64,000 nucleotides of DNA from Sphingobium lignivorans (lineage in GTDB: Bacteria > Pseudomonadota > Alphaproteobacteria > Sphingomonadales > Sphingomonadaceae). How positions within the stretch are numbered: the stretch's first letter is position 1; every line of letters starts with the position of its first letter. Below, piece by piece: positions 13,631-17,557 of this stretch. The stretch is taken from contig NZ_JACHKA010000001.1 in NCBI RefSeq assembly GCF_014203955.1, forward strand, positions 2,263,001 through 2,327,000, given 5' to 3'. The position numbers and the translations under genes were made by a program. The notes beneath the pieces were generated by a model, which saw only the letters and a list, made by a program, of their open reading frames with translations, made no database searches and was not told the DNA's origin.

Positions 13631-14957
<1,327 letters not shown>

Positions 14958-15006
14958 AATCCTTCCGCGCCCCGGCATTTTTTTTTAAGACGCCCGGTTC
15001 CATGCG

Positions 15007-15576
15007 TCACAACAGCCCAGGCCCGGACAGGAGCAGCCAGATGCCGATCCCCGCGAACAGCATCGCCGCGACGAGCCGCACCGCTTTCAGCGGCACGCGC
15101 CGGACCAGCTCATGGCCCAGGAACACGGCGGGGACATTGGCCAGCAGCATTCCCAGCGTCGTGCCAAGCGTCACCATCCCGACCTGCTGGAACTGCGCGC
15201 CAAGAGCGACGGTCGCGACCTGCGTCTTGTCGCCCATCTCCACCAGAAAGAACGCGACCGTGGTGGTGAGGAAAGGCCCGAAGCGACCGGGCTCTTCCGG
15301 CAGATCGTCCATCTTGTCGGGAATGAGAGTCCATAGGGCCATCGCCAGGAACGAGGCTGCGACCAGATAATGGAACCAGGCGGCACGAACCAGCGAAGCG
15401 ACGCTGACCCCGAGCAGCGCGGCGAGGAAATGATTGGCGAGCGTGGCCGCGAGAATGCCCAGGATGATCGGCAGCGGCCTGCGGAAGCGCGTGGCGAGCA
15501 GGATCGCCAACAATTGGGTCTTGTCGCCGATCTCGGCCAGCGCGACCACGGCGGTCGAAGTAAACAAGGCTTCCAT
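15007..15576 (-). CDS. GDT1/TMEM165 (UPF0016) family manganese exporter
   Basis: The 189-residue inner-membrane protein has two homologous three-helix halves. Each half carries the family motif E-x-G-D-K-T: LAEIGDKTQLLAIL near residue 14 and VEMGDKTQVATVAL near residue 114. These acidic motifs bind the cation. Bacterial members of UPF0016 (MneA/YebN-like in role) export Mn2+, and related eukaryotic proteins move Mn2+/Ca2+. The Mn2+-sensing riboswitch directly upstream strongly supports manganese as substrate. The gene lies between rnhB and ccrM on the same strand. Confidence 0.92.
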   Translation of the reverse strand: MEALFTSTAVVALAEIGDKTQLLAILLATRFRRPLPIILGILAATLANHFLAALLGVSVASLVRAAWFHYLVAASFLAMALWTLIPDKMDDLPEEPGRFGPFLTTTVAFFLVEMGDKTQVATVALGAQFQQVGMVTLGTTLGMLLANVPAVFLGHELVRRVPLKAVRLVAAMLFAGIGIWLLLSGPGLL

Positions 15577-15649
15577 GATGATGCACTCAGGGCCAGGGCG
15601 AACATACCGATGACATCACGCCTTCCGCCCGGCCCGGACGAAAGCGCAA

Positions 15650-15757
15650 CGTCATTGGTCTCGCCTGGACCTCCGTCCCCCGCCGCCATGACCTCTCGGC
15701 CAAGTATGTTGACGCGCGGGCCCGCCGAACCGGCGGCTGGCTACTCCCCAAGTGACG
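15650..15757 (-). ncRNA. yybP-ykoY manganese riboswitch
   Basis: On the minus strand all conserved blocks of the yybP-ykoY aptamer occur in order. P1 is CGTCA(C)TTGG pairing with CCAATGACG. The first conserved loop is GGGGAGTAGCC. A GC-rich hairpin follows (CCGCCGGTTCGGCGG). The second conserved loop is GTCAACATACTTGG, and the 3' strand is GGCGAGACC. It lies about 75 nt upstream of the GDT1-family start. In this family Mn2+ binding stabilises the aptamer and raises expression of the exporter. No obvious intrinsic terminator follows, so control may be at translation. Confidence 0.94.
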
Positions 15758-15860
15758 CAAGCCCGCTAGGGGAAACCGGCACGCCCGTCAATCTCCGGGG
15801 CGCACGCCGCGCTGGCTGATTTGTGGCAAGGCCCCACGCCGCCCGCCTCGTTTGCCCGTT

Positions 15861-16442
15861 TCAGGCCAGCGCCATCTGCGCGACGGGCGTGAAGCTGCGT
15901 CGATGCAGCGGGCTGGGCCCGTGCGCGCGCAGGGCGGCGAGATGATCGGGCGTGCCATAGCCCTTGTTGCGCTCCCAGCCATATTGCGGATGGGCCAGCG
16001 CCGCCTCGCGCATCAGCGCATCGCGATGCTCCTTCGCGATGATGGACGCGGCGGAGATGCAGGGTTCGAGCGCATCTCCCCCGACGATCGGGCGTGCGCT
16101 CCAGCGCCATTCCGGACGGCGACCATGGGGCGTCAGATTACCATCAATGAGCACTTCAAGCGGATCGCAGCCGATGCGGGCACACAGCGCCTCCACCGCG
16201 AGAGTCATCGCCAGCATGGTCGCGCCGAAGATGTTGAGCTGGTCGATCTCCGCCACGTCGACCACGCCGATGGCCCAGTGGCATCGCCGCTTGATGGTCG
16301 CTTCCAGTTCCGCACGACGCGCTGCGCTCAGCTTCTTGCTGTCATCGAGACCCGCCGGGCGGGGCTTGCAGAGAATCACGGCCGCGGCCACCACCGGCCC
16401 GGCGAGCGGGCCCCGGCCGGCTTCGTCCACACCTGCGATCAT
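15861..16442 (-). CDS. rnhB: Ribonuclease HII
   Basis: RNase HII removes misincorporated ribonucleotides and RNA in RNA-DNA hybrids. The start MIAGVDEAGRGPLAGPVVAAAV contains the catalytic DEAGRG motif. LDDSKKLSAARRAEL, VLIDGN (Asp) and SAASIIAKEHRDALM complete the active-site set. The length of 193 residues is usual. The ATG at 16442 overlaps the upstream TGA (ATGA), so it is translationally coupled to the ThiD-VOC gene, and the longer open frame to 16619 is rejected. Alphaproteobacteria often keep rnhB next to ccrM. Here the GDT1 gene lies between them. Confidence 0.95.
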   Translation of the reverse strand: MIAGVDEAGRGPLAGPVVAAAVILCKPRPAGLDDSKKLSAARRAELEATIKRRCHWAIGVVDVAEIDQLNIFGATMLAMTLAVEALCARIGCDPLEVLIDGNLTPHGRRPEWRWSARPIVGGDALEPCISAASIIAKEHRDALMREAALAHPQYGWERNKGYGTPDHLAALRAHGPSPLHRRSFTPVAQMALA

Positions 16443-17557
16443 GGCAGGCGCCAGGGCGGATAGCGGCGGTTCTCGCCAGCCGCGTACAGGCAGACGCGAT
16501 TGCCGGCCGGATCGACCAGCCATGCCTCGCGCCAGCCCCAGCCCTGCGTCTGCGGCTCGCTGTCGAAGACAAGGCCGGCCGACTGAAGCTGTGCCACGCG
16601 CGCGTCCAGATCGTCGCACTCGAAATAGACCGCCGGGCTATCGCCATGGATGGAAAGCGTCGCGCCGCCGGGTGCCTCGAACCGCGCATAGCCATTGCCG
16701 GGACTGTCGACGATGAGCCGCAGGCCCAGATCCTCGTAGAAGTCGCGCGAGGCGGCATAATCCAGCATCGGTACGCTCAGCTGGTTGAGCCGCGGGGGCG
16801 GCCCGAGGTCGAGCCGTACGGTGCCATGCCCCATCGGACCATGACCCTGGCCCAGCCCCGGCGCGTCCCGCAGTGCCAGCCGCACGAAGAGACGCGCCCG
16901 CTCGATGGCCTGGGGCAGATCAAGCCCCTGCCCCAGGCCGCAGGCAATCGCGCTGGCCAGCGTGCATCCGGTGCCATGGGTATGGGGCGTATCGATGCGC
17001 GAGCCTTCCCACCGGGCGATTTCGCCTTCCGGCCCGACCAGCCGGTCGATGATCGTCTCGCCCGGCGCGTGCCCGCCTTTCACCAGCAGCATCTCGCCGC
17101 GCACCGTCAGTTCATGCTCGCCGCCCAGTGCCTCCAGCTCCGGGAGGTTGGGCGTCGTGAGAAAGGCCCAGCCCATCAGCTCGTGCAAGCTGTCGATCGT
17201 TTCCGCATCGGCCAGCGTGCCGCCGCTGCTGGCGACCATCACCGGATCGAGGACGACCGGCGCGCCGATCGTTTCCAGTCGCTCCGCGAGCGCCAGCGCC
17301 GTCTGCGCGGAGCCGATCATGCCGATCTTCACGGCATCCACGCCGATGTCGCTCACCACGCTGTCGATCTGCGCCAGAACCATCTCGGTCGGCACGGGAT
17401 GGATGCTCTGCACGCCCAGCGTGTTCTGTGCCGTGATGGCCGTGATCGCCGTCATCGGATGGCCGCCCAGCATGGTGACGGTGCGGATATCCGCCTGAAT
17501 GCCGGCGCCGCCGCCGGAATCGGAGCCGGCGATGATGAGGATGCGGGGAATCGTCAT
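16439..17557 (-). CDS. thiD: HMP/HMP-P kinase (ThiD) fused to a C-terminal VOC (glyoxalase-like) domain
   Basis: Residues 1 to about 255 form ThiD, the thiamine-pathway kinase phosphorylating hydroxymethylpyrimidine and its phosphate. Its motifs are IIAGSDSGGGAGIQADI, KIGMIGS, VLDPVMVASSGG and the anion-hole loop THGTGCTLASAIA near residue 195. From about residue 258 a second domain of about 110 residues begins (LSVPMLDYAASRDFYEDLGLR ... VYFECDDLDARV ... WLVDPAGNRVCLY). This is a vicinal oxygen chelate fold as in glyoxalase/bleomycin-resistance proteins. Both parts are in one frame with no stop. The VOC partner function is unknown. The stop overlaps the rnhB start by 4 nt. Confidence 0.9.
   Translation of the reverse strand: MTIPRILIIAGSDSGGGAGIQADIRTVTMLGGHPMTAITAITAQNTLGVQSIHPVPTEMVLAQIDSVVSDIGVDAVKIGMIGSAQTALALAERLETIGAPVVLDPVMVASSGGTLADAETIDSLHELMGWAFLTTPNLPELEALGGEHELTVRGEMLLVKGGHAPGETIIDRLVGPEGEIARWEGSRIDTPHTHGTGCTLASAIACGLGQGLDLPQAIERARLFVRLALRDAPGLGQGHGPMGHGTVRLDLGPPPRLNQLSVPMLDYAASRDFYEDLGLRLIVDSPGNGYARFEAPGGATLSIHGDSPAVYFECDDLDARVAQLQSAGLVFDSEPQTQGWGWREAWLVDPAGNRVCLYAAGENRRYPPWRLP

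Follow-up and report, generated by a model that had tools for sequence, protein, structure and literature searches.

The minus strand of the window, that is, of the whole 64,000-nucleotide stretch of Sphingobium lignivorans DNA that we analysed, appears to carry a yybP-ykoY Mn2+ riboswitch that is transcribed from its own promoter and raises the expression of a GDT1 exporter gene at high manganese, a reading to which we assign a probability of about 0.75. Mn2+ binding and the switched step are inferred here, and the ON polarity is carried over from tested members of the family. The unit itself is a correctly recognised, ordinary Mn2+ riboswitch–GDT1 unit in a clade-specific location. What seems new, judging from aligned leaders, is a conserved promoter and two covarying, mutually exclusive helices of the expression platform, which provide a covariation-supported, testable platform model for sphingomonad Mn2+ riboswitches; among the papers listed by our literature searches on sphingomonads and other alphaproteobacteria, we found no description of a sphingomonad yybP-ykoY platform. 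The aptamer and the gene that it precedes are as follows.

15650 to 15757, minus strand: Mn2+ aptamer of the yybP-ykoY class (Mn2+ binding predicted)
15757 to 15748, minus strand: 5' strand of P1
15749 to 15739, minus strand: aptamer loop GGGGAGTAGCC
15713 to 15703, minus strand: aptamer loop GTCAACATACT
15665 to 15657, minus strand: aptamer motif GGCGAGACC
15658 to 15650, minus strand: 3' strand of P1, referred to below as strand a
15007 to 15576, minus strand: GDT1/UPF0016 (MneA-type) predicted Mn2+ exporter, 189 aa

The aptamer was identified by an Infernal match to RF00080, the yybP-ykoY Mn2+ riboswitch family, at 15762–15587 on the minus strand (48.4 bits, E 7.6e-10), which exceeds the curated gathering score of 45 bits. 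In a reduced Infernal search the window riboswitch scored 49.8 bits against the same model, and it was the sole RF00080 match at E ≤ 0.001 in the 4.2 Mb genome. Both conserved loops are present, together with a closing P1, in which 15757–15748 pairs with 15658–15650 through CGTCA/TGACG and TTGG/CCAA. The original prediction of a complete yybP-ykoY Mn2+ riboswitch is thus upheld by the covariance model, with Mn2+ binding predicted from membership in the family, and every motif on which it relied (both invariant loops, GGCGAGACC and the closing P1) was located on the minus strand.

Directly downstream of the riboswitch, an intact frame begins with the ATG at 15576. As anticipated, its product has two E-x-G-D-K-T motifs, EIGDKT and EMGDKT, and it contains the PF01169 domain above the cut-off (142.4 bits, E 5.7e-42). 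A pair of E-x-G-D-(K/R)-(T/S) motifs is the definition of UPF0016 in a review which also lists Mn2+ export as known for V. cholerae MneA (PMC7380456). A search of solved structures with the GDT1 protein gave no match. One GDT1 protein was found in the genome, and a genome search that covered MntP and Nramp detected neither; the bacterium may thus depend mainly on GDT1 for Mn2+ export. The proposed control of a GDT1 exporter by a Mn2+ riboswitch, and with it manganese control of what is possibly the main Mn2+ exporter, is supported at the sequence level by Rfam, Pfam and the family-wide comparison.

The pairing of this riboswitch with GDT1 is ordinary. According to the same review, a UPF0016 gene is under a yybP-ykoY riboswitch in 328 of 333 screened UPF0016-bearing strains (PMC7380456). 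Within the genus sample, 58 of 61 genomes had an RF00080 match; in the family sample (Sphingomonadaceae), where stricter search filters lose weak matches, 120 of 298 genomes had one at E ≤ 0.001 and 79 had one above the cut-off. Loci were fetched for 111 of the 124 family-sample matches (13 were left out), and GDT1 was present by tblastn in 90 of the 111. The downstream open reading frame was obtained for 17 of the 21 loci without GDT1, and the four downstream proteins tested at such loci were two Na_Ca_ex and two MntP proteins. The system of the window resembles other RF00080 riboswitches that precede UPF0016/mneA genes in the sequence and structure of the aptamer and in the downstream exporter gene, but differs from them in its position before ccrM in one clade and in the details of the sphingomonad platform.

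Two further observations concern the family. RF00080 matches of Sphingomonadaceae also precede genes for Na_Ca_ex exchangers and MntP (loci L002, L008, L015 and L036). Two genomes of the genus, G326 and G343, contain two GDT1 genes each, with 65–70% identity to the window GDT1, and two RF00080 matches per genome (L148, L149, L206 and L207).

The leaders compared below belong to loci at which GDT1 was matched and the first loop could be recognised, and they comprised 130 distinct sequences; 93 representatives were kept below 85% identity, and a stricter check set of 41 below 70%. The first element conserved among them lies immediately 5' of the aptamer.

15763 to 15791, minus strand: promoter-like hexamer pair with a 17-nt spacer
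15791 to 15786, minus strand: hexamer TTGACG
15768 to 15763, minus strand: hexamer TAGCGG

The pattern TTG(A/C)-N17-20-TA was found at this place in 81 of the 93 representative leaders, compared with 1.5% in shuffled upstream sequence; a consensus promoter scan of the window did not report the conserved pair. Judged by the spacing of the hexamers, the conserved promoter is predicted to put the start of the riboswitch transcript at about 15756, among the first bases of P1.

Downstream of P1, the leaders share two helices and the ribosome site.

15607 to 15658, minus strand: anti-P1 hairpin, in which a (15658–15650) pairs with a' (15617–15607), with an inner stem between them
15590 to 15635, minus strand: helix of b (15635–15626) with b' (15600–15590), adjoining the ribosome site
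15586 to 15589, minus strand: degenerate ribosome site (TGAG), separated from the ATG at 15576 by 9 nt

Strand a' is a downstream copy of the P1 5' strand and competes for the P1 3' strand a; as a is required by both structures, the anti-P1 hairpin competes with P1. The b:b' helix, which in the window has one bulged T, joins part of the inner stem of the anti-P1 hairpin to the stretch right before the ribosome site, and since b is buried inside the a:a' hairpin, the two helices are mutually exclusive. Both covary. For a:a', both partners had changed in 88 cells of the 93 leaders, a number reached in 0 of 200 shuffles, and in 53 cells of the 41 leaders (0 of 500); for b:b', the corresponding numbers were 20 (0 of 200) and 13 (0 of 500), it being understood that shuffling leaves the relatedness of the leaders in place and that shuffle counts are not probabilities. 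The extra pair types of b:b' were unexceptional in number, as 6 of 200 shuffles of the 93 leaders and 63 of 500 of the 41 leaders reached it, and one slid control gave 16 versus 15. In the 93 leaders, 87% of the cells of a:a' and 93% of those of b:b' were paired, versus at most 54% in slid controls. When 90 leaders were folded freely (three of the 93, without a recognisable ribosome site, were dropped), a:a' was dominant at 0.76, and when P1 was enforced in them, b:b' appeared at 0.73. In another genome of the same species, a:a' is still paired despite differing nearby bases. Judged by eye and without scoring, several of the eight Na_Ca_ex/MntP leaders have a stem like b:b' ahead of the ribosome site.

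A different OFF structure, in which the aptamer loop and the P1 5' strand pair with the ribosome site, was attractive in the fold of the window. Its covariation was no better than that of shuffles in either the 93 or the 41 leaders (on one measure, 166 of 200 shuffles of the former set and 499 of 500 of the latter reached or exceeded it), and it is therefore not relied on here.

The mechanism that we propose would proceed as follows. The riboswitch and GDT1 would be transcribed from their own promoter. With Mn2+ bound, strand a would be held by P1, so that the anti-P1 hairpin could not form and b:b' would be able to. With Mn2+ absent, the long hairpin made by a and a' would form as the more stable structure, and GDT1 expression would be lower. 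The lowering step could be termination, a closed ribosome site, or both; termination would be intrinsic in those relatives that have U-rich tails, and possibly aided by Rho. The original prediction had left the switching mode open, and the analysis narrows it without settling it.

Several features of the leaders would fit termination. The anti-P1 hairpin of the window is rich in G+C, folds with -29.0 kcal/mol, overlaps P1 and is followed by UAUGUU, a tail of a kind that is U-rich on average across the leaders but has short runs. The nine bases after a' contain 41% U, compared with 19% across the leaders, and at least four U in 51 of 93 leaders; the runs are short, of at most two U in 64 of 93. 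This enrichment is consistent with a weak intrinsic terminator whose hairpin overlaps P1, like that of L. lactis, where Mn2+ is described as switching expression ON by blocking a terminator of which the P1.1 strand is a shared part (PMC11087558). As in that transcriptional switch, a downstream strand of the sphingomonad platform competes for the P1/P1.1 3' strand and makes a long hairpin; unlike it, the window has a weak U tail and the additional b:b' helix beside the ribosome site. A terminator scan reported none in the window leader, in agreement with the earlier remark that the platform has no obvious terminator. One report describes V. parahaemolyticus mneA as induced by Mn, with reads showing no drop at the riboswitch (PMC13274385), and we counted the latter against the model.

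Could control be purely translational, so that Mn2+ decides the opening of the ribosome site without any termination? We regard this as possible, though we lean against it. It would agree with the position of b' directly adjoining the ribosome site, with the covariation of b:b' and the similar stem seen by eye, unscored, in several of the eight Na_Ca_ex/MntP leaders, and with the lack of a U run in the window. It would also have a precedent in E. coli mntP, a related ON switch which acts on translation, Mn2+ freeing the ribosome site and allowing escape from Rho (PMC11647493). That system is like the present one in its exporter gene, its Gram-negative host and a ribosome site near the platform, but belongs to another exporter family, and control at the ribosome site is only a candidate here. 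The start codon had been said to lack a clear Shine–Dalgarno sequence, and indeed TGAG occupies the position at which many relatives have GGAG or GGAA. However, the P1 state brought no gain in predicted accessibility, and the aptamer loop did not covary with the ribosome site beyond shuffles. By pairing probability, enforcing P1 made the ribosome site more accessible in 17 of 90 leaders and less accessible in 34, and the site then paired with b at 0.42 on average; that of the window was predicted to be closed in free folding and also with P1 enforced. Opening it cost on average 7.85 kcal/mol in the P1 state, compared with 6.86 kcal/mol when a:a' was formed; P1 gave the lower cost in 26 of 90 leaders and a:a' in 44. 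The window's own numbers from this calculation are set aside, because the enforced a:a' register came from the columns of another leader and misfits the window (a:a' energy of -90.8 versus -106.8 in free folding), and other gapped leaders are possibly affected. Taken as a test of polarity, modelled accessibility is slightly against ON, without deciding it. Since the folding energies give no rise in accessibility with P1, the ON polarity was taken from the tested family members; folding models can tell neither termination from translation nor ON from OFF.

It is very improbable that the switch of the window is in decay and has lost its response, as TGAG in place of GGAG, the bulged b:b' stem and the weak tail might suggest, because the invariant loops and P1 are intact, a:a' is still paired in the same-species genome though nearby bases differ, and the frame of GDT1, the only one found in a genome where no MntP was found, is intact as well.

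The proposed manganese-responsive unit lies between two genes of the same strand, and a block rich in GANTC separates it from the second of them.

15861 to 16442, minus strand: rnhB (RNase HII), the upstream neighbour (PF01351, 127.7 bits)
14771 to 15006, minus strand: block upstream of ccrM, in which six GANTC sites fall within 14957 to 14805
13631 to 14770, minus strand: ccrM-type adenine DNA methylase, listed as a neighbour and not as part of the switch (PF01555, 232.5 bits; RAMA, 69.8 bits)

Against the NCBIfam CcrM model NF050803 (Caulobacter-type), the methylase scored 613.6 bits, below the cut-off of 830. GDT1 is directly before ccrM in five of 61 genus genomes (G000, G351, G336, G076 and G349), a count in which G329, whose contigs are broken, and G347, which lacks a full ccrM match, were unjudgeable and G348 had no GDT1 match; the same arrangement occurs in the same-species genome G144. 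Without GDT1, rnhB precedes ccrM in five of 12 cassette-free genus loci with long flanks (L209–L220), and in 22 of 28 family loci the flank contains it near ccrM, which indicates that rnhB–ccrM is probably the older order. The riboswitch–GDT1 unit was thus probably inserted between these old neighbours in one clade, as had been supposed. In a tree of GDT1 proteins, the six genomes with the cassette are not monophyletic (the node that unites them holds 22 leaves, with a support of 0.82), which is compatible with both relocation and acquisition of GDT1.

The six GANTC sites in the 236-bp gap have a Poisson chance of 2.4e-6 at the density of the window, for a region chosen after it had been noticed. 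Comparison of loci (window 14957–14805, L112, L032, L033, L117–L141, L201–L203, L209–L220 and L301–L328) revealed 4–10 GANTC sites per 260 bp upstream of ccrM, in similar places, in each of 43 genus loci from 42 genomes, six with the GDT1 cassette and 37 without it. The 28 family loci had a mean of 5.5 per 260 bp, where the remaining sequence of these loci predicts 0.32. The sites, which are those of CcrM, lie at about -187, -158, -138, -50 and -40, and the distances between them are close to multiples of 10 bp. Such a cluster suggests methylation feedback on ccrM. GANTC sites upstream of cell-cycle genes were assessed in a 2010 survey of alphaproteobacteria, in the consulted part of which we found no description of sphingomonad ccrM (PMC2877005).

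As the block is kept with or without GDT1, ccrM appears to retain its own control region, and this conserved upstream block is what most likely controls it. The suggestion that readthrough could let manganese influence ccrM is not supported: the unit lies upstream of a ccrM block that is conserved with or without GDT1, and among the 61 genomes of the genus it is present there in only five. That Mn-induced transcripts run through GDT1 into ccrM, and that manganese status alters DNA methylation in this clade, is highly unlikely. The common strand, the 236-bp gap in which a scan detected no terminator, so that low readthrough into ccrM is possible, and the persistence of the arrangement in the five genus genomes and the same-species genome would allow it; against it stand the conservation of the GANTC-rich block in the 43 genus loci, the similar clusters in the 28 family loci and the late insertion of the cassette in one part of the genus. 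Mn2+-induced readthrough that adds to ccrM transcription, in the clade with riboswitch–GDT1 before the ccrM block, we hold to be just as improbable. If true, it would connect a nutrient metal with the methylation of the chromosome and the timing of the cell cycle; this unsupported link to ccrM would have been the surprising part.

In the same region, the open reading frame at 17557–16439 on the minus strand encodes a phosphomethylpyrimidine kinase domain (PF08543) fused to a glyoxalase-type domain (PF00903).
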